Assembly (NCBI GenBank): GCA_019455065.1
Contig: JACFNC010000005.1
Span: 62,001 to 126,000, forward strand
Source of the DNA: Rhodospirillales bacterium
GTDB lineage: Bacteria; Pseudomonadota; Alphaproteobacteria; Rhodospirillales; Magnetospirillaceae
Length of the DNA: 64,000 bases
Reading direction: 5' to 3'
Positions 20,666 to 58,210 of the stretch are shown in pieces. Below the pieces are notes generated by a model. That model was given only the letters and a program-made list of their open reading frames with translations, was not told the origin of the DNA and did no database searches. The stretch's first letter is position 1; the number at the start of each line of letters is the position of its first letter. A program made the position numbers and the translations under genes.

Positions 20666-20679
20666 TGACACCCCCTTTG

Positions 20680-20722
20680 TGAATGACCGGTTATTCATCG
20701 TTCAGTCTGCGCACGCTGTCAA
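20680..20722 (-). promoter_or_regulatory. Promoter and 18-bp TetR-type operator for had-oah-dch
   Basis: Minus-strand TTGACA (20722 to 20717) is followed by the operator TGAATGACCGGTTATTCA (20680-20697 in plus reading). The palindrome has one mismatched pair and a CCGG centre. The -10 is not clear because the operator covers its place. This is one of the best full-length examples of the regulon site. Confidence 0.68.
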
Positions 20723-33339: not shown

Positions 33340-33368
33340 CCCCCGACCGAATTGTTCAGGAGCCATCG

Positions 33369-34541: not shown

Positions 34542-34552
34542 AGGAGCGCGTC

Positions 34553-35362: not shown

Positions 35363-35363
35363 C

Positions 35364-37965: not shown

Positions 37966-38153
37966 TGAACGACAGGTCATTATCATTCTCGCCCGATTGC
38001 GTCCAGGGCGCGAAAAAACTTACCTGTATCCAGGAAAAAGACCGTGTTTGCTGAATCCCAAAAGTGGCAAACGACTGTTGACCGATTGTTCATGCGACTT
38101 GACGGGCGTCGGCGTGCATGTCATCATCCGACAATAAACCGGACGGTCGTTCT
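37966..38153 (+). promoter_or_regulatory. Control region of acyl-CoA dehydrogenase at 38178, several operator sites
   Basis: TGAACGACAGGTCATTAT (37966-37983) is an 18-bp site with one mismatch in the left arm and two in the right. TGACCGATTGTTCA (38079-38092) is a compact 14-bp site. A weak promoter TTGACG (38099-38104), 17 bp, CATCAT (38122-38127) is followed by a half-site GTCGTTCT (38146-38153). The 254-bp gap has no gene. Confidence 0.5.
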
Positions 38154-38177
38154 AATAATAATCGGGAGGCTGTGACC

Positions 38178-39452: not shown

Positions 39453-40772
39453 ATGGACGGATTTGTAGCGGACGAACGCTTCGACGCGGTCGTCATCGGC
39501 GCCGGGGCGGGGGGACTATGCGCCGCGGCGCGCTTGGCGAAGGCCGGGTACTCGACGCTGCTGATCGAGGCGCGCGACCGGCTGGGCGGGCGCGCCTCCA
39601 CCGAGGAGATCGACGGCTTCAGAGTCAACACCGGCGCCATCGCCCTGGAGCTCGGCGGCGTTTTCGAGGAGACGTTCGCCGAGGTCGGCGCGCCGCTGGA
39701 CATCCGTCTGCCCGAGCCGCCCGCCGCCTTCTATCTCAATGGAAAGGTGGTCGACGTGAGCCGGGGCGGCTGGGGAACCCTCCTGGGAGGGCTCACGAAG
39801 CACACCGCCCGGATCCTCGACACCTTCGGCGAGGCCCGCCGCGGCAATCTGCCCGACGGTCGCCAGTCGACCCAGGATTGGCTGAACGGCCTTACCCGCA
39901 ACAAGACGGTACATGCGATCTTCCGCAATCTTTGCGCGGCGATCTTCGCTTGCAACGCGGATGAACTTCCGGCCCGCGCCTTCCTCACCTATTTCACGCG
40001 CAAGGGCGCGTTCAAGCGGTTCGGTTTCTGTCCGCGTGGCACCATCGGCGTCTGGGAGGATCTTGCGGCGGCCGCGCGGGCGCATGGCGCCGACATTCGC
40101 CTGTCGACGCCGGCACAAGCGATCGCGGTTGACGGCGGCCGCGTGCGCGGCGTGCTCGTCAGCGAGAATGGCCGCGAACGTCGTATCGCTGCCGGGATCG
40201 TCGTGAGCAATGCCGGGCCCAAGCACACGGTGGCCCTGGCCGGGGCCGCGCACTTCCCGAGCGAATATGTCGACCTGGTCAGCACGCGGCTGAAGCCCGC
40301 CGCCAACATCGTCATCAATTTCGCAAGCCGCGATCCCCTGCTGCATGCCCCCGGCCTCGTCACCTTTGGCCGAACCCGCAGGCTGTGCAACATGGCCAAT
40401 CTCACCGCGACCTGCCCCGAGTTGGCCCCGGAGGGGTGGCACCTCTATGTCGCCTATGCCGTCCCGAAGCCGGCGATCGGCGAATTCGATGCCGATGCCG
40501 AGATCGCCGAAGCGATGACCGACCTTCACGAGCAGATACCTGGTTTCGGCTCGGCCAAACTGCTGTCCGTCCGGGTGATGCGCGACGACTGGCCGGCCCA
40601 GCGCAGCCTTTCCGGCTACGATCTGCCGCGGCAGACGGGTGTCGGCGGGCTGTGGTGTGTCGGCGACGCCGTCAAGGACTACGGCAACGGCGGCACCCAG
40701 GCCTGCGCCGAGACCGCCAAGCTGGTGGTCGATGAGATCGGGGCGACGCATCCACCGTCGCGTCTGAACTAG
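39453..40772 (+). CDS. FAD-dependent amine-oxidase/phytoene-desaturase-like oxidoreductase
   Basis: A 439-residue flavoprotein. The N-terminal dinucleotide fold is AVVIGAGAGGLCAAARLAKAG, followed by the second-Gly motif RDRLGGRASTEEIDGFRVN. The C-terminal GLWCVGDAVKDYGNGGTQAC is the FAD-closing segment of the phytoene desaturase/protoporphyrinogen oxidase group. No carotenoid genes are nearby. Here it begins a plus-strand run that continues into a Liv-type transporter, so it may oxidise or saturate a cyclic intermediate. The substrate is unknown. Confidence 0.75.
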   Translation: MDGFVADERFDAVVIGAGAGGLCAAARLAKAGYSTLLIEARDRLGGRASTEEIDGFRVNTGAIALELGGVFEETFAEVGAPLDIRLPEPPAAFYLNGKVVDVSRGGWGTLLGGLTKHTARILDTFGEARRGNLPDGRQSTQDWLNGLTRNKTVHAIFRNLCAAIFACNADELPARAFLTYFTRKGAFKRFGFCPRGTIGVWEDLAAAARAHGADIRLSTPAQAIAVDGGRVRGVLVSENGRERRIAAGIVVSNAGPKHTVALAGAAHFPSEYVDLVSTRLKPAANIVINFASRDPLLHAPGLVTFGRTRRLCNMANLTATCPELAPEGWHLYVAYAVPKPAIGEFDADAEIAEAMTDLHEQIPGFGSAKLLSVRVMRDDWPAQRSLSGYDLPRQTGVGGLWCVGDAVKDYGNGGTQACAETAKLVVDEIGATHPPSRLN

Positions 40773-40787: not shown

Positions 40788-41588
40788 ATGTCGCAGGCGA
40801 CGCTCGAGATCAGAAACCTGCAGGTGATCTACGGCGGCGCGATCGAGGCGGTCCGCGACGTTTCGGTCCGCGTTGAGCCGGGGCGGATCGTTGCCCTTCT
40901 GGGGGCCAACGGCGCCGGTAAGTCGACCCTGCTCAAGGCGGTATCCGGCGTGCTGGCCAAGGAAGAAGGGGAAATAGAGGGCGGCGCAATCACCTTCGGC
41001 GGTCGCGACATTGCCGGCTTGCCGGCGGAAATGATCGTTCGCCTGGGGATCGTCCAGGTGCCTGAAGGCCGTCGTCTGTTCGCGCCGCTGACCGTGGACG
41101 AGAACCTGGAGATGGGCGGCTATGCGGCCGGTCCCCGCGTCCTGGCCGAGCGACGGGCAATGGTATTCGAACTGTTCCCGCGGCTTGCGGAGCGGCGGCG
41201 GCAGATTTCCGGTTATCTGTCCGGGGGCGAGCAGCAGATGGTGGCGATTGGGCGCGCCTTGATGGGGGGACCGCGCTTGCTCGCCTTGGACGAACCGTCG
41301 CTCGGCCTGGCGCCCATCGTCATCGACCAGATCTATTCCGTCATAGCGCGGCTCAACAAGGAGCTCGGGCTGGCCGTCCTGCTGGTCGAGCAGAACGCCC
41401 AGCGTGCGCTCGACATTGCCGACTACGGCTACATCGTCGAGCGCGGCCGTATTGTGCTCGACGGCGAGGCGGACAGCCTGACCGCGAACGACGACGTGCG
41501 GGAATTCTACCTCGGTGTTTCCGGCGCCGATCAGAAGAGCCTGCGGGAGGTCAAGCACTACAAGCGTCGCAAACGGTGGCTGTCATGA
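40788..41588 (+). CDS. ABC transporter ATP-binding protein, LivF-like (second system)
   Basis: A 266-residue nucleotide-binding subunit. Walker A LLGANGAGKSTLLKAVSG, signature YLSGGEQQMVAIGRALMGG, Walker B LLALDEPSLGLAPIVID, LLVEQNAQRALDIAD. A ~30-residue C-terminal tail (GADQKSLREVKHYKRRKRW) is longer than in most LivF proteins. ATGA overlap with the LivG-like gene. In this second system the ATPases come first and the permeases follow the ligase gene. Confidence 0.87.
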   Translation: MSQATLEIRNLQVIYGGAIEAVRDVSVRVEPGRIVALLGANGAGKSTLLKAVSGVLAKEEGEIEGGAITFGGRDIAGLPAEMIVRLGIVQVPEGRRLFAPLTVDENLEMGGYAAGPRVLAERRAMVFELFPRLAERRRQISGYLSGGEQQMVAIGRALMGGPRLLALDEPSLGLAPIVIDQIYSVIARLNKELGLAVLLVEQNAQRALDIADYGYIVERGRIVLDGEADSLTANDDVREFYLGVSGADQKSLREVKHYKRRKRWLS

Positions 41589-42388
41589 GCGCGCTGCTCG
41601 AAATCCAGGGGGCCACCAAGGCGTTTCGCGGTCTGGTCGCGGTCTCGGATGTCTCGCTGAGCGTCGAACGGGGCGAGGTCTGCAGCGTCATCGGCCCCAA
41701 CGGCGCCGGCAAGACGACCCTGTTCAATCTGATCAGCGGCGTGCTCCGCCCCACCTCGGGGCGTATCGTTTTCGACGGCAAGGACATGGGGCGCGTCCCC
41801 TCCCACCGGTTCGCCGCGCACGGCATCGGCCGCACTTTCCAGAACCTCGCGCTGTTCAAGCACGCCACGGTCGTCGAAAACCTTCTGGTGGGCTGCCACA
41901 CGAGCCTGCGGTCCGGCGTGTTCGCCGGCGCCGTCTTCTTCGGCCGCGCCCGCCGCGAAGAGATCGCGGCCCGGGAGCAGGTGGAGGAGATCGTCGAGTT
42001 CCTGGAAATCGAGGAACTGCGGGAGAAGGTCGTCGGAACGCTCTCCTACGGCCAGCAGAAGCGCGTCGAATTGGGCCGGGCGCTGGCCTGCCGCCCGAAG
42101 CTGTTGCTGCTCGACGAAATGGTGTCGGGGATGAACCAGGAGGAAACCGAGGACATCGCCCGCTTCATTCTCGACATCCGCGACGACTACGGCATCTCGG
42201 TGCTGATGATCGAGCACAACATGCGGATCGTCATGGACATCTCCGATCGCGTCCATGTGCTCCATTTCGGGCAGAAAATCGCGGAGGGAGCACCCGCGGA
42301 AATCGGCCGGGACGACACGGTCGCCGCCGCTTATCTCGGTCCCGCCACGGCAAAACATCCTCGGAGGCTCGCCGATGCGAATCGCTGA
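41585..42388 (+). CDS. ABC transporter ATP-binding protein, LivG-like (second system)
   Basis: About 267 residues. Walker A VIGPNGAGKTTLFNLISG, signature TLSYGQQKRVELGRALA, Walker B LLLLDEMVSGMNQEETED. The usual Pro after DE is Met here (DEMVSGMN), a pattern seen in some LivG proteins. The switch region is LMIEHNMRIVMD. ATG 41585 overlaps the LivF stop; a GTG at 41576 is possible. The 3' end overlaps the next ligase by 14 bp. Confidence 0.86.
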   Translation: MSALLEIQGATKAFRGLVAVSDVSLSVERGEVCSVIGPNGAGKTTLFNLISGVLRPTSGRIVFDGKDMGRVPSHRFAAHGIGRTFQNLALFKHATVVENLLVGCHTSLRSGVFAGAVFFGRARREEIAAREQVEEIVEFLEIEELREKVVGTLSYGQQKRVELGRALACRPKLLLLDEMVSGMNQEETEDIARFILDIRDDYGISVLMIEHNMRIVMDISDRVHVLHFGQKIAEGAPAEIGRDDTVAAAYLGPATAKHPRRLADANR

Positions 42389-44279
42389 CGCCTCGATCGC
42401 GAACGCGCTGCGTCCCCTGAGCGCCGCCGATCTTCCGCAACGTCTGTTCGAGGGCTCGACAACCCTGCCCCGACTGTTGCGATACCGTGCGGAAACGCAA
42501 GGCGGCACATTGGCGCTTCGCGAGAAAGACCGCGGCGTCTGGCGCCGTTATACGTGGTCGCACTACTACGCCACGGTGCGGCGCGTCGCGCTGGGCCTCG
42601 CGGCCCTTGGGTTGCGCGCCGGCGACCGCATCGCCATCGCCAGCGAGAACACTCCGGAGTGGTTCTACGCCGACCTCGGGGCGGAATCGCTCGGCGCCGT
42701 GACAGTGGGGATCTATCCCACGAATCCCTGGCCCGAGCTGCAATACATCGTCGGCCACAGCGGGGCGCGGATCGTCTTCACGGGCGATCAGGAGCAGACG
42801 GACAAGGTCATCGAGGCGCTGGAACGGGAAGGCGGCCTGCCTGCGGTCGAACGCATCGTATGCGTCGACATGAAGGGGATGCGGGGCTATCGCCACGAGA
42901 AGTTGATGTCGTTCGCTGACCTTCTGGAACTCGGGGACGCCCACTTGCGGGAGCGGCCGAGCGCAGGTGCGGACCTGGATGCGGCCATTGACGCGGCGAG
43001 CCCCGACGATTGCTGCATCCTGGTCTACACCTCGGGGACCACCGGCCCCCCGAAGGGCTCGATGATCTCTCACCGCAACATCATCTACTCCGCCTTCACC
43101 TATGCCGAGGGTTGCGGCGTTCTTGAGCGGCATTTCGAGGCGGTGTGCTACCTCCCCCTGTGTCACATGGCCGAGCGTTGCTACTCGATGGTGATGCAGT
43201 TGGTGACCGGCGGCTCGATCAATTTCGCCGAATCGATCGATACGGTGGCTGCCAACGTGCGAGAGATCGCGCCGACCTTTTTCATCGGTGTGCCGCGCAT
43301 CTACGAGAAGCTCCATCAGGGATTCCTGCTCAAGCTGGACGACAGCGGGCCGGTCCAGCGTTGGGCCTTTCGGCAGGCGATGCGGCTTGGGCGCGGCCTG
43401 TCGGAACGCCGGCATGCCCGGGTGGGGGCGACGGGCCTCGGTGATCGCGCACTGGCCGCGTCCCTTTACTGGACGATGTTCCGCAACATCCACCGCTATA
43501 TGGGCCTCGACCGGTCACGCCACCGGCTGTGCGCCGGCGCGGCCGTCTCGCCCGAGCTCATGCGGTTCTTCGACATCATTGGGCTCCCGGTCAGCCAGGG
43601 TTACGGGCTTACCGAGTGCGGGGGCGTGGCCTTCCTCCAGCGCGGCGTTCATTGCCGCCCCGGCGGCGCCGGCACCGCGTTGCGCGGCGTGGAGTGGGTC
43701 CAGGCCGACGACGGCGAGATCATCCTTCGCAGCCCGGGCGTTTTCCTGGGTTATTTCGCCGATGCGAGCGCAACCTCCCAGAGCTTGTCCGCCGACGGTT
43801 GGCTGGCGTCGGGCGACATCGTCGAGGTGCTCGACAACGGCGAGATCACCGTCGTCGACCGCAAGAAGGCGATCATCATCACCAGCGGCGGCAAGAACAT
43901 CTCGCCTTCCGAGATCGAGAACGCGCTGAAGGACAGCCCATACATCGCCGAAGCGATCGTCGTCGGGGAGGGGCGCAAGTTCGTCGGTGCCCTGATACAG
44001 ATCGACTACGACACCGTCGGACGATGGGCGCGCGATCGCGGTCTGGCCTACACGACCTATCGGTCGCTCACCCTGCTGCCCGAGGTGGGCGCGCTGGTGC
44101 AGCAAGTGGTTGACGCCGTGAATTCCCGGTTCGCCCGGGTCGAATCTGTCCGGCGTTTCGTGCTGCTCGAGAAGCAACTCGATCACGACGATGGCGAGCT
44201 TACGGCGACGCAGAAGGTGCGGCGCGGCGTGATCGACAAGAAGTTCCAAAAGGAACTGGCCGAAATCTACGGGGAGTGA
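42375..44279 (+). CDS. Long-chain-type AMP-forming acyl-CoA synthetase
   Basis: A 634-residue FadD15/FACS-type synthetase: A3 LVYTSGTTGPPKGSMISHRN, A5 SQGYGLTECGGVAF, A7 GWLASGDIVEVLDNGE, ITVVDRKKAIIITSGGKNIS, and the catalytic Lys in LTATQKVRRGVIDKKF. The insertion between A3 and A5 (residues ~320-400) is typical of the long-chain branch. ATG 42375 follows GGAGG and lies inside the LivG-like gene. It is sandwiched between ATPase and permease genes of one importer, so uptake and activation of the same acid are likely coupled. Confidence 0.85.
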   Translation: MRIADASIANALRPLSAADLPQRLFEGSTTLPRLLRYRAETQGGTLALREKDRGVWRRYTWSHYYATVRRVALGLAALGLRAGDRIAIASENTPEWFYADLGAESLGAVTVGIYPTNPWPELQYIVGHSGARIVFTGDQEQTDKVIEALEREGGLPAVERIVCVDMKGMRGYRHEKLMSFADLLELGDAHLRERPSAGADLDAAIDAASPDDCCILVYTSGTTGPPKGSMISHRNIIYSAFTYAEGCGVLERHFEAVCYLPLCHMAERCYSMVMQLVTGGSINFAESIDTVAANVREIAPTFFIGVPRIYEKLHQGFLLKLDDSGPVQRWAFRQAMRLGRGLSERRHARVGATGLGDRALAASLYWTMFRNIHRYMGLDRSRHRLCAGAAVSPELMRFFDIIGLPVSQGYGLTECGGVAFLQRGVHCRPGGAGTALRGVEWVQADDGEIILRSPGVFLGYFADASATSQSLSADGWLASGDIVEVLDNGEITVVDRKKAIIITSGGKNISPSEIENALKDSPYIAEAIVVGEGRKFVGALIQIDYDTVGRWARDRGLAYTTYRSLTLLPEVGALVQQVVDAVNSRFARVESVRRFVLLEKQLDHDDGELTATQKVRRGVIDKKFQKELAEIYGE

Positions 44280-44285
44280 GAGGCG

Positions 44286-45158
44286 ATGCAGTATCTCGTC
44301 GACCTGGTTGTCTCCGGCATCGCCGTCGGCGCCATCTATGGGCTGGTGGCCATGGGCTTCGCCCTGATCTACAAGGCGACCGGTCTCGTGAACTTCGCTC
44401 AAGGCGAGATGGCGATGGTCATCGCCTACATAGCCTGGACCATCGCCGGCACCGTACCGGGACATCCGTGGCTCGTCGTCGGTGGCGCCCTCGTCGCGGC
44501 CCTGCTGCTCGGGCTCGTGATCGAACGGCTGATCATGCGGCCGATGCTGGGCGAACCCGTGTTCGCGACGGTCATGGTGACGATCGCCCTGGCCGTCATC
44601 CTTCGGTCCCTCGTGTTGCTCGTCTGGGACCCGTATCCGCATGCGCTCGACATCGGCGTGGGGCGTGACGTGATTCATTTCGGCGGCACCGGCGTGCGGA
44701 GCGCCCAAGTCGCGGTCATGGCGACACTCCTCGCCACCTGTGCCGTCATGTGGGCGTTCTTTCGCTTCAGCAGGATCGGCAAGGCGATGCGCGCGGTCGC
44801 TGCGGATGAGCGCACCGCCCAGTTGATGGGGATAAGCGCGGCGCGCATCCACGCCGTCGCATGGGTCGGTTCGTCCCTGATCGCCGGGATCGCCGGGATC
44901 TTCTTTGCCCTGATCTACGACGTTTCCCCCAATCTTTACCACGTCGGCCTCAAAGCGTTTCCCGCGACCATCCTGGGCGGGCTCGATTCCGTTTTGGGAT
45001 CGGGTCTGAGCGGCGTGGTGCTCGGCGTCGCCGAGAACCTCGCCGGCGGCTATCTGGCGCCCAGCCTGAAGGAGATTACCGGCTTTGCCGTGATCATCGC
45101 CGTGCTGATGGTCCGGCCGTTCGGGCTGTTCGGCGAACGCGAAATCGAGAGGGTCTGA
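44286..45158 (+). CDS. Branched-chain-type ABC permease, LivH-like (second system)
   Basis: A 290-residue permease with about eight hydrophobic segments. It opens QYLVDLVVSGIAVGAIYGLV and has ATGLVNFAQGEMAMVIAYI. The coupling loop is FSRIGKAMRAVAADERTAQL. It ends in a TGATG overlap with the LivM-like gene. It is 6 bp after the ligase stop. Confidence 0.87.
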   Translation: MQYLVDLVVSGIAVGAIYGLVAMGFALIYKATGLVNFAQGEMAMVIAYIAWTIAGTVPGHPWLVVGGALVAALLLGLVIERLIMRPMLGEPVFATVMVTIALAVILRSLVLLVWDPYPHALDIGVGRDVIHFGGTGVRSAQVAVMATLLATCAVMWAFFRFSRIGKAMRAVAADERTAQLMGISAARIHAVAWVGSSLIAGIAGIFFALIYDVSPNLYHVGLKAFPATILGGLDSVLGSGLSGVVLGVAENLAGGYLAPSLKEITGFAVIIAVLMVRPFGLFGEREIERV

Positions 45159-46204
45159 TGCGTAGCGGGCACTACAAGGAGAGCGTTCCCAGCCTGATCG
45201 TCCTGAGCGATTCCACCGCGGTGTGGGTATGGGGCGGGATTCTGGTTCTGGCGATGGCGATGGCCCCCTATTTCCTCAACGCCTACCTGCTGTCCTTTCT
45301 GGTGCTCATCCTGATCACGGGCACCGGCGCCCTCGGGCTGCACGTGCTGACCGGCTGCACCGGACTGATATCGCTGGGCCATGTGGGCTTCCTGCTGCTG
45401 GGCGCCTACGCCTACGCGGTGCCGGTTGCCAAGTTCGGCGCGCCGCCACTGATCGGCTTTCTTTCCGCCGGTGTGGTCCCGGCGCTGGTCAGCATCGTCG
45501 TCGGCGTGCCTTCCCTGCGGCTCAAAGGGCTGTATTTGGCGATAACCACGCTCGCCTTCGCGTTCATCATCAGCCATGTCGTGCTGAGCATGAGCTGGCT
45601 GACCAATGGAGCGCGTGGCCTGCCGGTGATGCGTCCCGAGCTGTTGGGAATCGATTTCGAGAGCGATGCCCGCTTCGCCCATCTGTGCCTCGTGGTCGCC
45701 GTGGCGACGCTGTTCGCGGTGCTCAACATCCAGCGCTCCCGTGTCGGGCGCGCCTTTGTTGCGGTGCGCGACAACGACATCGCCGCGCGCACGATGGGCA
45801 TCAACCTGCAGGCGTACAAATTGCGCGCCTTCATGACCAGCGCCTTCATCAGCGGCATCGCGGGCGCCCTTTTCGGCATCTATTTGAGCTTCGTGTCGGT
45901 GGAAGGCTTTCCATTTCTGATGAGCATCGAGGCGCTGGCGATCCTCATCGTCGGGGGGTTGGGGTCGACCGCGGGCGTGGTGCTCGGCACGGTCTTGATC
46001 GTTCTGCTGCCGGAGGTGGCGCGCATCGCCTTGGGGATGTTGGGCCCGCAGGCCGAGATGCTCTTTTCCACTGCGGCTCATGAGTTGCGCACCGTGCTCT
46101 ACGGCCTGGTGATCATCCTGTTCCTGCGCTTCGAGCCCCGCGGGCTCGTCGGAGTGTGGCGTGACGTCAAGCGACTGTGGGTCAATTGGCCACTGCGCCA
46201 CTGA
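45158..46204 (+). CDS. Branched-chain-type ABC permease, LivM-like (second system)
   Basis: A 348-residue permease. A ~30-residue hydrophilic start precedes the membrane region. TGCTGLISLGHVGFLLLGAY and LKGLYLAITTLAFAFIISHV are the LivM signatures. The coupling segment is VGRAFVAVRDNDIAARTMGI. C-terminal GLVGVWRDVKRLW is also usual. Its start overlaps the LivH stop by one base. Confidence 0.87.
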   Translation: MRSGHYKESVPSLIVLSDSTAVWVWGGILVLAMAMAPYFLNAYLLSFLVLILITGTGALGLHVLTGCTGLISLGHVGFLLLGAYAYAVPVAKFGAPPLIGFLSAGVVPALVSIVVGVPSLRLKGLYLAITTLAFAFIISHVVLSMSWLTNGARGLPVMRPELLGIDFESDARFAHLCLVVAVATLFAVLNIQRSRVGRAFVAVRDNDIAARTMGINLQAYKLRAFMTSAFISGIAGALFGIYLSFVSVEGFPFLMSIEALAILIVGGLGSTAGVVLGTVLIVLLPEVARIALGMLGPQAEMLFSTAAHELRTVLYGLVIILFLRFEPRGLVGVWRDVKRLWVNWPLRH

Positions 46205-46244
46205 AACGGTGCATCAAGCACAAATGCCATAAGGGAGGGAGAAG

Positions 46245-47390
46245 ATGGTTTCGAGACTTGCGATTATCTTGGCGGTAGGGCTGTTCGCCGCCACCGCTGC
46301 CAAGGCCGACCAGGGAATCACGGACACCGAGATATTGCTCGGGGAGGTCGAACCGCTGACCGGGCCGCCCGCACTGCTCGGTGTCGCCTACAATGTCGGC
46401 ACCAAGATGGCGGTGGCCGAGGCCAACGCGGCCGGCGGCGTCGCCGGCAGAAAGCTGCGCGTCATCGTCGAGGACGACGGCTACGTGGCGGCCCGCACCA
46501 TCCAATCGGTGAAGAAGCTGATCGACGTCGACAAGGTCTTCGCCTTGACCTCGCTCTCAGGCTCCAACGGCGTTGCCGCCTTGCCGGTGGTCGAGAAAGC
46601 CGGGATCCCGACGATGGCCTCGATCGCGCCGATCACTCCCCTCTACCAGCCGCCGCGCAAGAACGTCTTCGTGGTCGGTCAATCCTATGAAGAGGGGATG
46701 TACCAGTTGGTGCGCTACCTCGCCCGCAAACATCCCGGGGCGAAATGGGGCATCCTCACGCAGAACGACGATTACGGCGTCGCTCTGCGCGCGGGCTTTT
46801 CTCACGCGCTCAAGGACGGCGGCATCAACGTCGTCTTCGAGGGGGAATACAAGAAGGGGCAACAGGACTTTTCGTCGGACATTCTGCGCGCGCGGCAGGC
46901 CGGCACCGAAGTCTTCATGGCCGGCGGCGTTCTCGCCGAAACCGTGGCCATGGTCCGCGAGTTCGAGAAACTGAACAGCAAGCCCGCCATCGGCATGTTC
47001 TGGCCGGGGCGCGTGCCGGTGACGCTGAAGCTCATGGGACCGGCCGGCGAAGGAATCTACGCCGTCGATTACGTCGAGACCGACGACAGCGCAGCGGTGA
47101 AGGCCTTCGTCGAGCGGGCGAAGGCACTGGTGAGCGAGGGCGAGGTCAAGGCGATCAACCGTTACAGCCTGGCGTCCTATGCCAGCACGAAGGTGCTGAT
47201 CGAAGCCATGCGGCGTTGCGCCAAGACCCTGACCTGGGCCTGCACCATCGCCGAACTCGAGAAGACCAAGGGGTTCGAGACGGCCGTGATGGGACCGATC
47301 AGCTTCGGCCCCGGCGTGCGCTTCTCATCGCAGGCCGTGCGGATCATGCGCGGTGATGCGGCCAGCCTGACCTACAAGGTAACCGACTGA
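46245..47390 (+). CDS. Periplasmic substrate-binding protein (second Liv-type system)
   Basis: A 381-residue binding protein. Signal peptide at the N-terminus (VSRLAIILAVGLFAATAAKA, cleavage after AKA). The mature protein begins DQGITDTEILLGEVEPLTGP. Family segments: AAGGVAGRKLRVIVEDDGYV and WGILTQNDDYGVALRAGF. GGGAGGGAG lies before the ATG. Completes the second importer. The ligand is not readable from the sequence. Confidence 0.87.
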   Translation: MVSRLAIILAVGLFAATAAKADQGITDTEILLGEVEPLTGPPALLGVAYNVGTKMAVAEANAAGGVAGRKLRVIVEDDGYVAARTIQSVKKLIDVDKVFALTSLSGSNGVAALPVVEKAGIPTMASIAPITPLYQPPRKNVFVVGQSYEEGMYQLVRYLARKHPGAKWGILTQNDDYGVALRAGFSHALKDGGINVVFEGEYKKGQQDFSSDILRARQAGTEVFMAGGVLAETVAMVREFEKLNSKPAIGMFWPGRVPVTLKLMGPAGEGIYAVDYVETDDSAAVKAFVERAKALVSEGEVKAINRYSLASYASTKVLIEAMRRCAKTLTWACTIAELEKTKGFETAVMGPISFGPGVRFSSQAVRIMRGDAASLTYKVTD

Positions 47391-47496: not shown

Positions 47497-49119
47497 ATGA
47501 TGAAGAGAGCCACGGATTACGGATACGCTATCAAACCGGTGTACACGCCCGAGGATATCGCGGAGTTGGATTACCGCCGGGATCTCGGTGAACCCGGCGC
47601 CTTTCCCTACACCCGCGGCTACCATCCCGAGGGCTATCGCAGCCGCATGTGGACCCAGCGAATGACGGCCGGACTGGGAACCTCGCGGGACGCCAACCTC
47701 GTGCTCAAGAAATATCGCGAGATGGGCCAGCGCGGAGGCATGTGCGTCATCAGCGATCGCGTGTTCTCGTCCTGCATCGACGTCGACCATCCGCTCGGCC
47801 GGAGAGAGGCCGGTGTGCTCGGGTGGCCGGGATGTTCGCTGCTCGAGTTCGAGGAGTTGATGGAGGACATTCCCCTCACCGGCCAGTCGATCACGTTGCT
47901 TGGCTCCTGCGCGCCGACGACGCTGCGTCTGGCCTATGTCGTCGCGTTGGCCGAAAAGCGCGGCGACGACCTTTCCAAGATTCACGGATCGGTTCTGGAA
48001 TCGCCGTTCGAGAACTATTTCGGCCAAACCGACGTCCAGCCCTTCGATCTCAACCTCAAACTCTTCCTGGACGCGTCGGAATATGTGATCCGCAACCGGA
48101 TTCGCATGCGGGCCGCCATAATCAGCCAGCATTTCCAGGAATCGGGCGGCAACAACGCCCAGGCGCTGGCCCTGGAAATGGCCATGTTGAAAGAGCTTTG
48201 CACCTTGCTGGTCACCGAGCGGGGCCTCGATTTCGATGACGTCGCCACCCTGCCCTACGAACTGGTGAGCATCGGCACCCGCTTCTTCGAGGAGATAGCG
48301 AAGGTGCGCGCCCTGCGCCGCATGTGGGCGCGTCTGGCGCGGGAGCACTTCAAGGCGAAGAAGGAAAAGTCGTGCCACCTGCTGATCGCGGCGCACACCT
48401 CCGGTCGCACCATGACCTATCAGCAGCCGCTCAACAATATCGTGCGCTGCGCCATCCAAACCCTGGCCGGCGCCATCGTGGGGGCCACCGCGATCGACAA
48501 CGCCACGCTCGACAATGCCCATGCCGAACCGTCGCCCTTGGCGGCGCGCATGTCCCTCAACACCCAGCACATCGTCGCCTACGAGACCGGCGCTGCCGAC
48601 GTGGTGGACCCGCTGGCGGGGTCCTATTTCGTCGAAGCGCTCACCGACGAGGTGGAACGGGAAGCCTATGCCATTCTCGCCCGGATCGAAGAAATGGGCG
48701 GGATGATCGCGGCACTCGACCGCGGCGTCGTCCAGGACATGCTGCGCGAGGAGGCGGCCAAGAGGTTCCGCGAGATAGACACCGGCGAGCGGCTGGTGGT
48801 GGGCGTCAATCATCTCGTCATGCCCCCCGAGGAGGAGTTCGAGATACCGGTGCAAGAATTGCCGCCCGGCGATTCGGAAGGCATCGCGCGCCGCATGGAG
48901 GAATGGAAGAAGACCCGCGATCTGCCGTTGGTCGCGGCCCGACTGAGTCGGCTCCACACGGACGCCGGAAAAGGCGATCGCTTCAACTTGATGCCGGCCA
49001 TCATCGATGCCGTGAAGGCCTACGCCACGGCTGGCGAAATTTTCGGCGTGATACGCATGGCGCGGGGGCTCAGCTATGACCCGTTCAACATGATCGAATG
49101 CCCTTTTGCGCTCCAGTGA
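47497..49119 (+). CDS. B12-dependent acyl-CoA mutase, large (substrate) subunit, divergent
   Basis: A 540-residue protein with the methylmalonyl-CoA mutase TIM-barrel fold but no B12 domain, like IcmA/HcmA. The N-terminal PGAFPYTRGYHPEGYRSRMW and the B12-contacting His in SQHFQESGGNN (~212) are present. The C-terminal half is well conserved (SGRTMTYQQPLNNIVRCAIQ, AADVVDPLAGSYFVE). The substrate pocket is not: by eye the Tyr of methylmalonyl-CoA mutase (RQYAGF) is Thr57 here (RMTAGL), and the region that holds its Arg207 has no Arg. The FDLPTHRG loop reads SDRVFSSC. It is followed by its B12 subunit and GTPase. A new substrate, perhaps a branched or cyclic acyl-CoA, is likely. Confidence 0.8.
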   Translation: MMKRATDYGYAIKPVYTPEDIAELDYRRDLGEPGAFPYTRGYHPEGYRSRMWTQRMTAGLGTSRDANLVLKKYREMGQRGGMCVISDRVFSSCIDVDHPLGRREAGVLGWPGCSLLEFEELMEDIPLTGQSITLLGSCAPTTLRLAYVVALAEKRGDDLSKIHGSVLESPFENYFGQTDVQPFDLNLKLFLDASEYVIRNRIRMRAAIISQHFQESGGNNAQALALEMAMLKELCTLLVTERGLDFDDVATLPYELVSIGTRFFEEIAKVRALRRMWARLAREHFKAKKEKSCHLLIAAHTSGRTMTYQQPLNNIVRCAIQTLAGAIVGATAIDNATLDNAHAEPSPLAARMSLNTQHIVAYETGAADVVDPLAGSYFVEALTDEVEREAYAILARIEEMGGMIAALDRGVVQDMLREEAAKRFREIDTGERLVVGVNHLVMPPEEEFEIPVQELPPGDSEGIARRMEEWKKTRDLPLVAARLSRLHTDAGKGDRFNLMPAIIDAVKAYATAGEIFGVIRMARGLSYDPFNMIECPFALQ

Positions 49120-49140
49120 CAAGCGGATCGGAGACGAAAC

Positions 49141-49578
49141 ATGAGTGCGGGACAAGGAAAGAAAGTAATCGTCTCGATGATCGGTCTCGATGGTCACACC
49201 ACGGGGGGTGAAATCGTGGCGCGCATCCTTCGGGACGCCGGCATCGAGGTGGTCTATCTCGGCTGCAACCAGACTCCGGAAATGATCGTCCGGGCCGCGA
49301 TCCAAGAGGACGTGGACCTGATCGGCATCAGTTCGCACGCATCGAACTACGGTCAGATCGTTTCCCTGGTGGAATTGCTCAAGCGCAACGGCGCTGAGGA
49401 CGTGCCTGTCGTGTGCGGCGGCAACGTTCCCAAGCACCAGGCGCGCCTGCTCATCGAAAAAGGCGTGGCGGCGGTGTTCCCGCCGGGCAGCGGCGCCGAC
49501 TCCATCATTCGCTTCGTACTCGGCAACGCACGGGGTGCGACTGCGGGGTTGTGCGTGAATGGCGAGGGGATCGCATAG
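49141..49578 (+). CDS. B12-dependent acyl-CoA mutase, small (cobalamin-binding) subunit
   Basis: A 145-residue cobalamin-binding domain. The DxHxxG motif is in GLDGHTTGGEIVARILRDAG; its His is the lower ligand of cobalt. GISSHASNYGQIVSL replaces the usual SSLAxxH loop, and VVCGGNVPKHQ is the GG motif. It pairs with the 47497 subunit to form the active mutase. 21 bp separate the two genes, and the GTPase follows 2 bp after its stop. Confidence 0.88.
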   Translation: MSAGQGKKVIVSMIGLDGHTTGGEIVARILRDAGIEVVYLGCNQTPEMIVRAAIQEDVDLIGISSHASNYGQIVSLVELLKRNGAEDVPVVCGGNVPKHQARLLIEKGVAAVFPPGSGADSIIRFVLGNARGATAGLCVNGEGIA

Positions 49579-49580
49579 CC

Positions 49581-50543
49581 GTGACCAACGGCGCCCGCGA
49601 CGAGAACGTCACGTTGGAGGCACTGTGCCGAGGCGACGTGCGGACCTGCGCGCGGCTGCTGACCCGGATCGAGCGGGGCGAGGAGGCGGTCATTCCCTTG
49701 CTGCAGGCCCTGTATCGCGCCGGCGGCAATGGCCGGGTGATCGGGGTGACCGGACCGCCGGGGGCGGGCAAGAGCTCATTGATCAGTTGTCTCATCGGGG
49801 CGTGGCGCAGGCGAGGCCTGCGGGTTGCGGTCTTGGCCATCGACCCCTCCAGTCCGTTCACTGGCGGCGCCGTGCTCGGCGATCGCCTGCGCATGGTCGA
49901 GCATGGATGCGATGACGGCGTGTTCATCCGCAGCATGGCCTCGCGCGGACAGCTTGGCGGCCTGGCCCGGGCGGCTGGAGACGCACTTACCGTGCTTGAG
50001 GCGATGCCGTGGGACGTGATCCTGGTCGAGACCGTCGGCGTCGGCCAGAACGAGACCGACATCATGCGCCATGCCGCGGTCGTGGTGCTGCTCCAGACGC
50101 CGCTGGGCGGCGACGAGGTGCAGGCCGTGAAGGCGGGAATAATCGAGATCGGCGACGTCTACGTGGTCAACAAGAGCGATCATCCCGCGGCCGATCGCAC
50201 CTGCCGCCAACTTCGGGAAATGATCGCCCGCGGCAGCCGGCTTCGCCCCGATCGCGATTGGCAGCCGCCGGTGATCAAGACCCAGGCGCATCTGGGTGTT
50301 GGCGTCGCCGAACTGGTCGACGCGATCGACGGCTGCTTCGCCCATCAGAATGCCGATCCTGAGGCGGCGCGCCGCTACATGAGCGATCGCGCCAGACACC
50401 GGATCGGCGAAATCCTCCGCGACCGATTGGACCGGCGTTTGCGGTCCGGCGACGAAGGCTGGCTCGAGGGCTCGATCGAGCCGGTGGTCAGCCGGGAAAA
50501 GGACCCTTATACCGTCGTCGCGGAAATGCTGTCCCGACTCTAA
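49581..50543 (+). CDS. MeaB/ArgK-type GTPase, mutase chaperone
   Basis: A 320-residue G3E GTPase that loads and protects cobalamin mutases. P-loop GVTGPPGAGKSSLISCL, AIDPSSPFTGGAVLGDRLRM, the G3 segment LVETVGVGQNETDI, and NKSD guanine motif in VYVVNKSDHPAADRT. GTG 49581 begins 2 bp after the B12 subunit stop; the longer frame upstream is a shadow. Close linkage shows that the mutase carries its own reactivation factor. Confidence 0.87.
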   Translation: MTNGARDENVTLEALCRGDVRTCARLLTRIERGEEAVIPLLQALYRAGGNGRVIGVTGPPGAGKSSLISCLIGAWRRRGLRVAVLAIDPSSPFTGGAVLGDRLRMVEHGCDDGVFIRSMASRGQLGGLARAAGDALTVLEAMPWDVILVETVGVGQNETDIMRHAAVVVLLQTPLGGDEVQAVKAGIIEIGDVYVVNKSDHPAADRTCRQLREMIARGSRLRPDRDWQPPVIKTQAHLGVGVAELVDAIDGCFAHQNADPEAARRYMSDRARHRIGEILRDRLDRRLRSGDEGWLEGSIEPVVSREKDPYTVVAEMLSRL

Positions 50544-50567: not shown

Positions 50568-51233
50568 GTGGCTCGTTCACGATCGAAAAAGTACCCCGAG
50601 GTCCAGCGCAGGATCCTCAAGGCTGCGGCCGCGGTGTTCGCCAAGGCTGGATACGCCACCAGCACCATCAACGACCTTACCGTCTCGGCGGAACTGTCGC
50701 GCGGCGCCCTGTACCATTACTTCCCGTCCAAGGAAGCCATCCTGTGCGAGATACTTAACGATCATCTTCTTGGATTTCTCGACGTCCTCGACCATGCGCT
50801 GCGCTCGAGCACCGCGGCTGTCGAGCAGTTGCGCGCCGTGACCAGGGCGATCGTCAATACCAACATCCGGTCCCGAAACGAACAGGTCCTTGTTCTCAAC
50901 GAACTCAACCAATTGTCGAATGCCGACAGGGCGCGCATGGAAGGCCTCCAGCGCCGGATATTGGATCAGGTCTCGGACCTGCTCATCCGGCTCGAAGGTG
51001 GCGTCAAGATAACCCAAGTGAACAAACGCGTTTATACGATGATGTATTTGGGAATCATCAACTACACCTTCGCCTGGTACAAGCCTGGCGGCGCCGTGAA
51101 ACCGGACGAATACGCCGATCTTGCGACCGAACTCTTCCTCAACGGCCTATTGAGGGACGCGCCGGACGCACGGAGGGAATCCGCTGCGCTGGCGTTCGAG
51201 GGCAGGCTGGCCGACGAGATGGGGAGGATCTGA
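50568..51233 (+). CDS. TetR/AcrR-family regulator (third)
   Basis: A 221-residue TetR protein with GTG start. HTH at about residues 14-60: [20 protein letters not shown], then [20 protein letters not shown]. The C-terminal part ([20 protein letters not shown]) differs from the ALKNW pair, so it likely senses another ligand. It lies 24 bp behind the GTPase and overlaps the racemase by 1 bp, so it is co-transcribed with both. No regulon-type palindrome was seen near it. Confidence 0.83.
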
Positions 51234-52396
51234 TGGCCGGCCCCCTGTCTGGCGTCACGGTGGTCGAATTGGCCGGCCTTGGACCCGCCCCCTTCGCCGG
51301 CATGATCTTGGCCGACATGGGGGCCGAGGTGGTCAGGATCGATCGAATTCCGGCCGCCGGGTCGTCCGGTTTCGAGGCGATGAAGCGGGAGGTGAGTCCG
51401 ATCGATCGGGGGCGCCGCTCGTTGGCTGTCGACCTCAAGGATCCGCGCGGGCTGGGCATCGTTCTCGACGTCGTGGCCAAAGCCGACGCGCTGATCGAGG
51501 GGTTCCGCCCGGGCGTGACGGAAAAGCTTGGGCTCGGGCCCGCGGAATGCCAGGCGCGCAATGGCCGCCTGGTGTATGGCCGGATGACCGGCTGGGGGCA
51601 GACGGGCCCGCTCGCCCAAGCGGCCGGGCATGACATCAATTACATCGCTTTGACCGGGGCGCTGCACGCGATTGGCCACAAGGACCGCCCGCCGCCGCCG
51701 CCGCTCAACCTGATCGGCGACTACGGCGGTGGCGGCATGTTGCTGGCCCTCGGCGTCATCTCCGCCCTTTTCGATGCGGGGCGGACCGGCCGCGGTCAGG
51801 TGGTCGATGCCGCCATGACCGATGGCTCCGCCCTGCTGATGACCCTGATCTATGGATGGTTGCGGTCGGGGCATTGGCGCGACGAGCGCGAAAGCAACCT
51901 GCTCGACGGCGCCGCGCCGTTCTATTGCACCTACGAGTGCGCCGACGGCAAGTACGTGGCGATCGGCGCCATCGAGACGAATTTCTACTCTCTGCTGCTC
52001 GAGCGGCTCGGTATCGAAGATGCATTGTTTGCCGACCAATGGGCGACGGCCGCCTGGCCGGAACAGAAGGCCCGGCTGGCGGCGCTGTTTAGCACCCGAT
52101 CGCGCGCCGAGTGGTGCCGGCTCCTCGAGGGCACCGACGCATGCTTCGCGCCGGTGCTCGACCTCGCCGAAGCGCCGAGCCATCCCCACAACGCCGCCCG
52201 AGGCACCTTCGTGGCCGCGGGCGGCACGATCCAGCCGGCACCCGCGCCACGCTTCAGCCGCACGCCAAGCGAACTGCCGGCGCCGGGACCGCGACTCGGC
52301 CGGCACTCGGTTGGCATACTCGAAGGCCTCGGCCGCTCCTCGGCGGAGATCGCGGACCTGCTCGTGGCCGGCGTCATCCACCAGGCCAGCGACTGA
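51233..52396 (+). CDS. Alpha-methylacyl-CoA racemase
   Basis: A 387-residue CaiB-fold protein with the racemase signature: His in [20 protein letters not shown], Asp in [16 protein letters not shown], and Glu in [20 protein letters not shown]. The C-terminal [20 protein letters not shown] is nearly diagnostic for the racemase group. It inverts the alpha-methyl centre of a 2-methylacyl-CoA so that a stereospecific dehydrogenase or mutase can act. Position right behind the mutase genes supports a branched-chain substrate. Confidence 0.86.
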
Positions 52397-52430: not shown

Positions 52431-53198
52431 ATGCTACAGCAATCCGCAGAGGCCCCCGTCCTGGTCGCCCGGGACGGCGCCGTCGCGACGGTCACCCTGA
52501 ACCGGCCGGCCAAGCTCAACCCCCTCGAGGGGACGCTCCTGACCGCGTTGGGTGCGGCGTTGGACGAGGTGGAGGCCGATCCGGCGGTCGCCGTGGTGGT
52601 CCTGCGCGGGGCCGGCAAGGCGTTCGTCGCCGGCGGCGACTTGGAGGTGCTGCATTCCGACGGCCCCGATGCCTGGCACCTGGTCGCGCGATTTCAGGAC
52701 GCGATCCGTCAGATTTCGTCGATGGGCAAGCCGGTCTTGGCGAGCTTGCACGGCGCCGTTGCCGGTGGCGGGTTCAGTTTGGCGCTGGCCTGCGACCTTG
52801 CGATCGCCGGCGACGACATGCGCATGATCTATGCCTATTCCAAGATCGCCGCGACCTGTGACGGCGGCCTGTCCTACCGGCTGCCGCGGATGGTGGGAAC
52901 ACGCAAGGCGCTGGAACTGGCGCTGATCGGCGACGCGGTGGACGCCGCCGAAGCGCTTCGGTTGGGCCTGGTCAACTGGGTGGTGCCGGCGGCGGCGCTC
53001 GAAGCCGAGACCGCGCGAATCGCACGCCGTCTGGCGAAACTGCCCCCGGACGTTTGCCGGCAGACCAAGGCATTGTTTCGCCAGAGCTGGGCCCGCGACC
53101 TCGATGAGCAGCTAGAGGCTGAGGTCGAATCGTTTCGGACGATATGCGCTCTTCCGACGTTCCGCCAAGCCATCGCCAGTTTCCTCGCCAAGGCCTGA
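52431..53198 (+). CDS. Crotonase-family enoyl-CoA isomerase, PaaG-like
   Basis: A 255-residue crotonase-fold protein. Oxyanion segments FVAGGDLEVLH and LHGAVAGGGFSLALACDLAI. Both hydratase Glu positions are lost (GGGFSL and YAYSKIAATCDGG). An Asp in ATCDGGLSYRLPR matches the position used by PaaG and related delta3-delta2 isomerases. It is therefore more likely a double-bond isomerase than a hydratase. The ATG follows GGAGGG; the longer upstream frame is a shadow of the racemase. Confidence 0.8.
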   Translation: MLQQSAEAPVLVARDGAVATVTLNRPAKLNPLEGTLLTALGAALDEVEADPAVAVVVLRGAGKAFVAGGDLEVLHSDGPDAWHLVARFQDAIRQISSMGKPVLASLHGAVAGGGFSLALACDLAIAGDDMRMIYAYSKIAATCDGGLSYRLPRMVGTRKALELALIGDAVDAAEALRLGLVNWVVPAAALEAETARIARRLAKLPPDVCRQTKALFRQSWARDLDEQLEAEVESFRTICALPTFRQAIASFLAKA

Positions 53199-56357: not shown

Positions 56358-57734
56358 TCAATTCCGCTCATAGGTTTTTTCCACCAGCTTGCCCTTGAGG
56401 GTGCTGCGCTCCAGCGAGCCGGGCGATACCAGCATGACGTCGCAGCGGACCTTCAGCAGGCCACGCAAGCGGTCTTCGAGGTCGGACTTGAGCACCGCGA
56501 GGGCCGGTCCCTGGAGACCCTCCGAATGTTCGATCTTTACCTTGAGCGGCGGATCGACCTTCGGGCCCGGCTGATCGAGCACCACCCGCATGTCGCCGGT
56601 GACACGAGGGATGAACGTGGCCACGACGTTCTTGATTCCCATCGGGTAGACCTTGATGCCGCGGACGTTCAGCATGTCGTCGACGCGCCCGATGATCTTG
56701 AAGCGGTGCCCGGTAAAGCCGCAACCAGGGCATGGGCTGGTGAATACCTGCAACAGATCGCCGAACGAGTAACGGAAAGCCGGCGCCGCCTGATGGACGA
56801 ATGAGGTGATCACGCCTTCGCCGACGGCGCCATCCTCGATTGCGACGGGCTTCTTGGTCTCGGGATCGACGATGTCGTACCAGATGCAATTGTCCTCGGA
56901 AATCACATGCAGGCCGTGATACTCCGCGGAGTCGCAGGAGACGTTGGCCAACCCCCAGCAGCCTTGCGAGGAGTCGAAGATCTTGGCGCCGCCGAATCCC
57001 TCCTCGATCTTCTGCCGCACACCGGGAATGCCCGCTCCCGGCGAGCCGGCCGCCACGATGATTTCGATCCCAAGCTCACTGGCCGGCTTTCCCAGAACGC
57101 CGGGGCAGCGCTCGATGATCAGTTCCGCCAGTGAAGGCGTTCCAAGCAGCGCGCGTGGCCTGGTCAGGTTCGCGAACATCAGCATCCGCTCCACGCCGCC
57201 CTCGGCGCCGGCGGCAATCGGCCGGCATCCCATGTTGGCGAGGGCGCGCACGACGGGAACGCCCGCCGACCACATGGACAGGCCGAACCCCTGCAACACG
57301 GTGTCGCCCGGTCGAATGCCGGCCCGCCACCAGGAACGCGCCCAGGATTCGTCGTTCAGGCGCATGTCGGCTTCGGTGAAGGTGTAGAACGTGGGCAATC
57401 CAGACGTACCGGACGTGCAGAAAACGTGCTTCACCTGGTCGAGAGGGGCGCACAGATAGGTCCCATAGGGATGGCCGAACATCGCCATCGATTCTTCCTG
57501 GGCGACGCGGTCCTCCTCCTTGGTGCGGCAGATCGGCAGATTCCGGAAGTCGTCCCAACTGCGGATGTCGTCGGGCTTCGCACCGACGGCCTCGAGTTTC
57601 TTGCGGAAGAAGTGCGGCGAATTGTCGTAGACGTAGCGGATCTGGGTCATCAGGCGCTGAAGCTGAATTCGCTTCAGCTCTTCGAGCGGCAGGCCTTCGA
57701 CGGCTGGGTTCCAGTATTGCTGGGACTCGGTCAT
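56358..57734 (-). CDS. Phenylacetate-CoA ligase-like (PaaK family) AMP-forming ligase
   Basis: A 458-residue ANL enzyme of the PaaK type. The P-loop is HVFCTSGTSGLPTFYTFTEA, where the usual Gly-Lys after Thr is modified. Further segments: FDSSQGCWGLANV, TSFVHQAAPAFRYSFGDLLQ, and IIGRVDDMLNVRGIKVYP. Four Cys in the middle, including SPCPGCGFTGHRF, resemble the metal-binding motif of PaaK. Starts in an ATGA overlap with the DUF2889 gene. Probably activates an aromatic acid in the sigma-54 pathway. Confidence 0.8.
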   Translation of the reverse strand: MTESQQYWNPAVEGLPLEELKRIQLQRLMTQIRYVYDNSPHFFRKKLEAVGAKPDDIRSWDDFRNLPICRTKEEDRVAQEESMAMFGHPYGTYLCAPLDQVKHVFCTSGTSGLPTFYTFTEADMRLNDESWARSWWRAGIRPGDTVLQGFGLSMWSAGVPVVRALANMGCRPIAAGAEGGVERMLMFANLTRPRALLGTPSLAELIIERCPGVLGKPASELGIEIIVAAGSPGAGIPGVRQKIEEGFGGAKIFDSSQGCWGLANVSCDSAEYHGLHVISEDNCIWYDIVDPETKKPVAIEDGAVGEGVITSFVHQAAPAFRYSFGDLLQVFTSPCPGCGFTGHRFKIIGRVDDMLNVRGIKVYPMGIKNVVATFIPRVTGDMRVVLDQPGPKVDPPLKVKIEHSEGLQGPALAVLKSDLEDRLRGLLKVRCDVMLVSPGSLERSTLKGKLVEKTYERN

Positions 57735-58210
57735 GGTCTCTCTTCGCTAAGCCATTGAGGCAGATCATCTTCGCCGGCCAGGGTATGGCCGGCGCAGACA
57801 CCCATTTGCCGGCGCAAGGCGCGGAAGCGTTCACGATCGCCCTGGGCGACCGCTGCGCGGGCCTCGTCCGACTTGATCAGGACCAGGGCGAACCGGCAGA
57901 CCTGTTCGGCGATTTCCGACAGATAGGGGCATCCCATCGAGCCCCCTGTGATGTCGCGCAGCCGGCGGCTCAGGCCGTCGGCGATCTGGACGCCGGCAAG
58001 GGGGGCAAGCCCAGGCAGGCTTTGCGGGCAGCCTTCCGCATAGGGGATGCGCCCCATGCCGCCCGAAGCCGAAACGATTTTCAGTGTGCGCCGATCGATC
58101 GCCAGCGAGATCGAGATGTCGTGGAAAGGGTCCTCGAGCCGCCCTTGCAGGGTCATGACATCGCCTGACTGATCGGTGAGGGTGACCGAGATGGTGCGTT
58201 GCCGGATCAT
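57731..58210 (-). CDS. DUF2889 family protein
   Basis: A 159-residue protein that matches the DUF2889 pattern: acid labelled RLEDPFHDISISLAIDRRT, PYAEGCPQSLPGLAPLAGVQ, and DITGGSMGCPYLSEIAEQVC. Cys residues in EGCPQ, MGCPY and VGVCAGH-like positions recur. The function of the family is unknown to me. It overlaps both neighbours by 4 bp, so its dose is tied to the PrpD-like and PaaK-like proteins. It may be an accessory or a small hydrolase of the same pathway. Confidence 0.7.
   Translation of the reverse strand: MIRQRTISVTLTDQSGDVMTLQGRLEDPFHDISISLAIDRRTLKIVSASGGMGRIPYAEGCPQSLPGLAPLAGVQIADGLSRRLRDITGGSMGCPYLSEIAEQVCRFALVLIKSDEARAAVAQGDRERFRALRRQMGVCAGHTLAGEDDLPQWLSEERP

Follow-up and report, generated by a model that had tools for sequence, protein, structure and literature searches.

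Background

To our knowledge only a handful of reactions are known for the B12-dependent acyl-coenzyme A (acyl-CoA) mutases, and each new reaction has defined a pathway, as with the ethylmalonyl-CoA cycle, the breakdown of methyl tert-butyl ether (MTBE) and tert-butanol, that of pivalate and the anaerobic degradation of auxin. The subject of this analysis is a predicted mutase with its own GTPase, encoded at positions 47497-50543 of a 64,000 nucleotide stretch (hereafter the window, to which positions refer) of the Rhodospirillales bacterium assembly GCA_019455065.1 (contig JACFNC010000005.1, positions 62,001 to 126,000 of the forward strand). It is the founder sequence of a clade that forms a subfamily, so far uncharacterised, within a known enzyme family and does not amount to a system of a new kind. 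Its rebuilt substrate pocket points to a substrate that differs from those of the characterised mutases, and the carbon skeleton that it rearranges is probably one as yet unstudied.

The best solved relative of the large subunit is HcmA of 2-hydroxyisobutyryl-CoA mutase (HCM; 273 bits), with methylmalonyl-CoA mutase (MCM) next. HcmAB (PDB 4r3u) shares with the window system the split into large and B12-binding subunits, a MeaB gene, a Gln at position 207 and His244 (residues are numbered as in the P. shermanii MCM, the literature number being the chain number plus one), and its operon contains a PaaK-like ligase, as do loci of the window clade. Where HCM has Ile at 89, Asp at 116, Tyr at 243, Gln at 330 and Glu at 370, the window clade has Thr, Ile, Gln, His and Asn, respectively, and it forms a separate clade (100/100). 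The pivalyl-CoA mutase (PCM) group, represented by Xaut_5043/5044, of which we take Xaut_5043 to be the published PCM, has in common with the window clade a Gln at 243, the QQPLNN motif and a locus of TetR regulator, mutase, GTPase and ligase, but it carries Leu at 89, Asn at 207 and Cys for Asp118, retains Glu370 and is likewise a clade of its own (100/100). The HCM and Xaut_5043 loci are laid out on the plan also seen in the window clade, with a regulator, the mutase, a GTPase and a PaaK-like ligase, but their ligases and that of the clade are only about 28% alike.

The MCM enzymes (P. shermanii 1req/5req, human, M. tuberculosis) are of the same fold family and share His244, Arg82, Thr85, Arg87, Asp118 and Glu247 with the window mutase, which lacks their Arg207, Tyr89, Gln197, Tyr243, Gln330 and Glu370 and has its subunits separate. 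The fused isobutyryl-CoA mutase IcmF also has a GTPase function coupled to the mutase, together with Gln at 207 and Arg at 334, but it is one chain of about 1,100 amino acids with Phe89 and Tyr243 and falls in its own clade. Finally, IaaGH, a benzylmalonyl-/phenylsuccinyl-CoA type mutase that rearranges (2-aminophenyl)succinyl-CoA in anaerobic indoleacetate degradation, has been described together with IaaL (PMC8360864). It resembles the window mutase in its split subunits and its place in anaerobic catabolism, and differs from it in that the IaaG-type proteins, including a putative copy in the window genome (L002), form a separate 100/100 group that retains Tyr89, Arg207, Tyr243 and Glu370.

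The mutase and its GTPase

Three genes on the forward strand make up the system. The large, TIM-barrel subunit (47497-49119, 540 amino acids, homologues of which start at its second Met at 47500) matches TIGR00641 with 355 bits (curated cut-off 304) and PF01642 with 414 bits. The B12-binding small subunit (49141-49578, 145 amino acids) matches TIGR00640 with 107 bits (curated cut-off 57) and carries the cobalamin-ligand motif DxHxxG as DGHTTGG, which is retained in the B12 subunits of the relatives too; a regular-expression match for one locus (L031) was a chance match in another reading frame. The MeaB-type GTPase chaperone (49581-50543), with a GTG start 2 nucleotides past the small-subunit stop, a Walker A motif GPPGAGKSS and an NKSD motif, matches TIGR00750 with 300 bits (curated cut-off 241). 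Judged from these matches, the locus encodes a split adenosylcobalamin-dependent acyl-CoA mutase and its own MeaB GTPase, as a preliminary description of this DNA had claimed with the correct coordinates. The mutase is one of four PF01642 proteins in the genome. IcmF was not found in the genome, and the window protein scores only 94 bits against the IcmF model NF045497 (cut-off 1500), being encoded by three genes and not as a single fused chain.

The substrate pocket

Residues were compared by a HMMER alignment to the P. shermanii MCM and a MAFFT alignment of all groups, and the functional roles of the pocket positions are those that we take from the MCM structures. It is apparent that the pocket has been extensively rebuilt. 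Fixed in all 24 members of the clade are Tyr89 to Thr57, Met78 to Gly46, Ala116 to Ile85, Leu119 to Arg88, Thr166 to Leu135, Arg207 to Gln177, Asn236 to Arg205, Tyr243 to Gln211, Phe287 to Leu256, Gln330 to His300, Trp334 to Arg304, Asn366 to Ala336 and Glu370 to Asn340, whilst Gln197 is variable (Met, Thr, Leu, Ile or Ser), Arg283 is replaced by a hydrophobic residue and His328 mostly by Ala. Kept in 24/24 are Arg82, Thr85, Arg87, Asp118, His244 (His212 of the window protein) and Glu247. The clade alters 7 of the 41 columns that are constant in all other groups; the same measure gives 0-3 for MCM, HCM, PCM and IaaG, and 9/45 for IcmF.

Much of this had been noticed in the preliminary description. 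Thr57 does stand in the Tyr89 column, at the position held elsewhere by Tyr, Phe or Ile, the FDLPTHRG loop is seen in the alignment to be replaced by SDRVFSSC, and the B12-side His, within DxHxxG, and the FPYTRG motif are both intact. The lack of an Arg in the region of Arg207 is also real, with Gln177 aligned there by MAFFT and Gly176 beside a one-residue gap by HMMER, but it is not distinctive because HCM and IcmF carry Gln at 207 as well. The stronger changes had been missed, namely Asn236 to Arg205, Tyr243 to Gln211 (common to PCM), Gln330 to His300, Trp334 to Arg304, Gln197 to Met, Thr or Leu, and Glu370 to Asn340. The unusual pocket is therefore confirmed, and on the aligned residues it is more divergent than was first stated.

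Phylogeny and distribution

A scan of genome contigs found 19 close relatives that are 67-80% identical to the large subunit, in metagenome-assembled genomes labelled as Rhodocyclales, Burkholderiales, Betaproteobacteria, Xanthobacteraceae, Alphaproteobacteria, Deltaproteobacteria, Thermodesulfobacteriota and Syntrophus, and genome searches added members in G007, G028, G052, G313 and G332. Groundwater, lake, wastewater and syntrophic genomes are among them. Beyond the clade the nearest sequences are just 35-39% identical. The clade is rare, being found in 6 of 317 genomes of the order and in 1 of 385 sampled evenly across the class, and searches of plasmids and of phage records gave no close relative, the best matches being 36.5% and 30%, respectively. 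No description of the clade was found in the papers searched.

Two trees were built with HCM, PCM-type, MCM and IaaG-type references, the second also with IcmF. In both trees the 24 clade members are monophyletic (100/100), with a very long stem (2.1 to 3.1 substitutions per site), and fall outside MCM, HCM, PCM and IaaG, and in the second outside IcmF; the HCM group (100/100) and the PCM group (100/100) each exclude the window mutase. The sister group is unsettled, as one tree places a Paraburkholderia plasmid mutase there (99/98, long branch) and the other PCM (91/73, with a long-branch warning). The window clade does not group with a single stand-in for isobutyryl-CoA mutase (ICM), a Deinococcus protein that matches an IcmA sequence at 64%. 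Neither does it join a single stand-in for ethylmalonyl-CoA mutase (ECM), L003, which is itself on a long branch and is presumed to be MeaA-like from its motifs. These two comparisons are weaker than the others since there is one stand-in for each and no verified IcmA or ECM sequence. The trees thus put the protein outside every characterised clade that was included and the alignment finds the usual pocket residues absent. Neither of the outcomes named beforehand as refuting the preliminary description was therefore obtained, and the idea of an unfamiliar pocket bundled with its own GTPase is supported.

Other unusual mutases were also seen. A very divergent split mutase on a plasmid of Paraburkholderia sp. 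PGU19 (L046:3941-5605) has Asp for His244, has the changes Gln330 to His and Trp334 to Arg in common with the window clade, and adjoins a MeaB gene, two acyl-CoA dehydrogenases and an enoyl-CoA hydratase. Another long-stem group (L009 and L010; G034:C393 and G026:C127) has Asn for His244 and Gln at 89. In one genome of the window clade (G332, L096) a single contig bears both the window-clade mutase and a mutase locus of the PCM type.

Gene neighbourhood

Upstream of the mutase, on the same strand, lie an acyl-CoA dehydrogenase (38118-39377; 80% in L095, 62% in L098), for which the nearest models are acryloyl-CoA reductase and cyclohexanecarboxyl-CoA dehydrogenase, all below cut-off, and a flavin adenine dinucleotide (FAD)-dependent oxidoreductase resembling amine oxidases and phytoene desaturases (39453-40772; 75% in L018 and L095, with order conserved). 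These are followed by the ATPases of a leucine-isoleucine-valine (LIV)-type ATP-binding cassette transporter (40788-42388; LivF 40788-41588, LivG 41576-42388), an acyl-CoA ligase with AMP-binding and AMP-binding_C_3 domains (42300-44279, exact start uncertain) and the LIV-type permeases and binding protein (44286-47390; LivH 44286-45158, LivM ending at 46204, LivK 46245-47390). The order FAD oxidoreductase, LivF, LivG, acyl-CoA ligase, LivH, LivM, LivK, mutase large subunit and small subunit is common to the window, L018 and L095, whose proteins are 69-84% identical; the arrangement also comes with the acyl-CoA dehydrogenase and the TetR gene, and the PaaK-like ligase of other clade loci is absent from it. 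The FAD enzyme accompanies the mutase operon in three genomes.

Downstream, again on the forward strand, are a TetR-family regulator (50568-51233), which is a conserved neighbour (cluster C3), a family III (CaiB-type) CoA-transferase (51233-52396) with 59% to a protein of L097 and 35-38% to counterparts beside the mutase in L035, L037 and L039, and an enoyl-CoA hydratase family protein (52434-53198). Further away, on the reverse strand, 56358-58210 encodes a PaaK-family-like protein in which the only recognised domain is a C-terminal AMP-binding_C_2, adjoining a DUF2889 protein and an MmgE/PrpD protein.

Across the clade, 22 of 24 loci have a ligase next to the mutase. The commonest is the PaaK-like ligase, encoded for instance at L016 7211-8560, with orthologues (at least 58% identity) in 15 of the 24 clade genomes searched, all 15 inside the mutase locus by contig coordinates. 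Its score of 213 bits to the phenylacetate-CoA ligases, as against 111 bits to 2-hydroxyisobutyryl-CoA synthetase, places it closer to the former. Other AMP-ligases lie close to the mutase in L023, L026, L027 and L028.

Anaerobic aromatic setting

The window also encodes, 15 kb from the mutase operon, a four-subunit class I reductase (31999-36236, forward strand) of the 3-methylbenzoyl-CoA reductase (MbdONQP; PDB 9g87) type, with an MbdO-like (31999-33339; 524 bits to MbdO) and an MbdN-like subunit (33342-34541; 614 bits to MbdN) and two ATPase subunits ending at 35362 and 36236. This reductase is a genomic neighbour and not part of the mutase. As further context, the reverse strand holds the ring-cleavage genes Oah (18446-19585; TIGR03200, 695 bits) and Had (19595-20698; TIGR03201, 536 bits), both over cut-off, and a second, ordinary benzoyl-CoA-reductase-like locus lies elsewhere in the genome (G000:C8).

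An Mbd-type reductase shares the contig of the mutase in two further genomes, at 20 kb in G102 and adjacent in G104. Within the order it is enriched in genomes with a clade mutase, at 3 of 6 against 7 of the remaining 311 (Fisher p = 4e-4, without correction for kinship). The Mbd-type reductase is a frequent associate of the mutase clade but not a required partner. An obligate partnership was considered and rejected, most clade genomes being without the reductase.

Proposed function

The presence of Thr57, Ile85, Arg88, Arg205, Gln211, His300 and Arg304 and the absence of Arg207 argue against methylmalonyl-, isobutyryl-, 2-hydroxyisobutyryl-, pivalyl- and arylsuccinyl-CoA as the substrate. When the pocket is taken together with the ligase, dehydrogenase and hydratase genes, it is suggested that an acyl-CoA is de-branched so that beta-oxidation can proceed. 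It is likely that the locus is the holo-mutase system of an uncharacterised subfamily, and that its substrate is an acyl-CoA with a branch or a ring, rearranged during the anaerobic breakdown of aromatic or alicyclic acids. From pocket, operon and homology we infer that the reaction would be a 1,2-shift of the CO-SCoA group on a branched or cyclic acyl-CoA, with the pairs 2-arylpropionyl-/3-arylpropionyl-CoA, 1-methylcycloalkanecarbonyl-/cycloalkylacetyl-CoA and 2-methylglutaryl-/adipyl-CoA, or a quaternary acyl-CoA as in PCM, as candidates. The earlier suggestion of a possible new rearrangement on such a substrate is partly supported, as it agrees with the pocket, with the CoA ligases next to the mutase and with the anaerobic aromatic surroundings. 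There is about an even chance that the whole clade carries out a carbon-skeleton rearrangement undescribed for B12 acyl-CoA mutases, on branched, aromatic or alicyclic acyl-CoA, so that anaerobic Proteobacteria and syntrophs could do away with branch points in the absence of oxygen, by means of an enzyme with an altered adenosyl site (Glu370 to Asn).

In such a scheme the organic acid would be imported by the LIV transporter and activated by the neighbouring CoA ligase, as the operon suggests, whilst the MeaB GTPase would load and protect the cofactor of the mutase. By homology, binding of the CoA ester would close the barrel and the Co-C bond would break homolytically, the deoxyadenosyl radical would abstract a hydrogen from the substrate, conserved His212 would polarise the CO-SCoA group as it migrates to the adjacent carbon, and the hydrogen would finally be returned to the radical of the product. 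The mutase may in this way turn a branched or ring-bearing acyl-CoA into a skeleton degradable by dehydrogenase and hydratase steps. Being conserved, altered in its pocket and encoded together with ligase, GTPase and transporter, the clade offers a ready test of the way in which anaerobes deal with branched or cyclic acids. It is also a natural experiment on the question of which residues in the pocket and at the adenosyl site are indispensable to radical catalysis.

Several observations weigh against this proposal. The Mbd-type reductase is found in just 7 of 25 clade genomes and is linked in three, so it cannot be an obligate partner. Two of the 24 loci (L020 and L032) are without a ligase next to the mutase, and as three kinds of ligase accompany the mutase the clade may handle more than one substrate. 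Glu370, which binds the adenosyl ribose in the MCM structures, is Asn in 24/24, and so the cofactor side could be altered. An AlphaFold2 model built from 18 close sequences was weak, with a mean predicted local distance difference test (pLDDT) score of 62 and pocket stretches below 50, too weak in the pocket to place the new Arg and His residues, whose positions come from the alignment; no relatives were found in viral contigs searched to widen that alignment.

Alternative explanations

One alternative, rather unlikely, is a mutase of aryl- or cycloalkyl-substituted acids, which might turn 2-arylpropionyl-CoA into 3-arylpropionyl-CoA, or 1-methylcycloalkanecarbonyl-CoA into cycloalkylacetyl-CoA. 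The commonest partner ligase scores nearer to phenylacetate-CoA ligase than to 2-hydroxyisobutyryl-CoA synthetase, the window acyl-CoA dehydrogenases are nearest to models of the cyclohexanecarboxyl-CoA dehydrogenase type, and Tyr89 to Thr and Tyr243 to Gln take away bulk. These family matches are, however, all under their curated cut-offs, and with Ile85 and three Arg residues added a larger apolar pocket is questionable.

It is unlikely that the enzyme is a divergent sister of PCM that acts on a compact quaternary-carbon acyl-CoA. In its favour, Gln in place of Tyr243 and the QQPLNN motif recur in the PCM-type sequences, the make-up of the Xaut_5043 locus (TetR, B12 subunit, mutase, GTPase and PaaK-like ligase) matches, and one tree joins the two groups at 91/73; yet that join comes under a long-branch warning and is absent from the other tree, position 89 is Leu in PCM against Thr and 207 Asn against Gln, PCM retains Gln197, Gln330 and Glu370, and the low likeness of the ligases (about 28%) also speaks against it.

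Equally improbable is a lower-pathway mutase of anaerobic methylbenzoate degradation, in which 2-methylglutaryl-CoA would be converted to adipyl-CoA so that the methyl-branched ring-cleavage product becomes open to beta-oxidation. In Azoarcus sp. CIB the pathway leads to 3-hydroxy-4-methyl- or 3-hydroxy-6-methylpimelyl-CoA and its lower part is open (PMC4424350), the MbdO/MbdN-like reductase is 15 kb away and is linked in G102 and G104, and the new Arg residues could hold a carboxylate farther off than Arg207 does. Most clade genomes are without that reductase, though, and the transporter and ligase that accompany the mutase would be needless for an intermediate formed inside the cell. The word 'mutase' is absent from the Azoarcus CIB paper (PMC4424350), and also from two papers on benzene degradation.

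That the protein is a non-catalytic or regulatory homologue is very improbable, for the loss of Glu370 and Asn366 has to be set against 67-80% identity across phyla and the retention of His244, the B12-ligand motif and the GTPase.

The identity of the mutase with IaaGH was at first attractive given the PaaK-like ligase, CaiB-type transferase and TetR gene, to which the split subunits may be added, but it was dropped, as an operon of the iaa type with another mutase lies elsewhere in the genome, which means that the window mutase is a different enzyme. With the clade apart at 100/100, Tyr89 and Arg207 kept in the iaa-type mutase, and a search of the genome placing no hydantoinase at the window mutase locus, this identity is next to impossible. 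The other operon, on contig 16, holds hydantoinase A and B, an acyl-CoA dehydrogenase, the mutase L002, a CaiB-type transferase, an AMP-ligase and a three-subunit molybdenum hydroxylase, and from this gene content it is probably an iaa operon for anaerobic auxin degradation; the EbN1 iaaF primer sequence had no match among 55 genomes of the family. The contig 16 operon (L041, G000:C16:172001-190000) also includes a tripartite ATP-independent periplasmic (TRAP) transporter.

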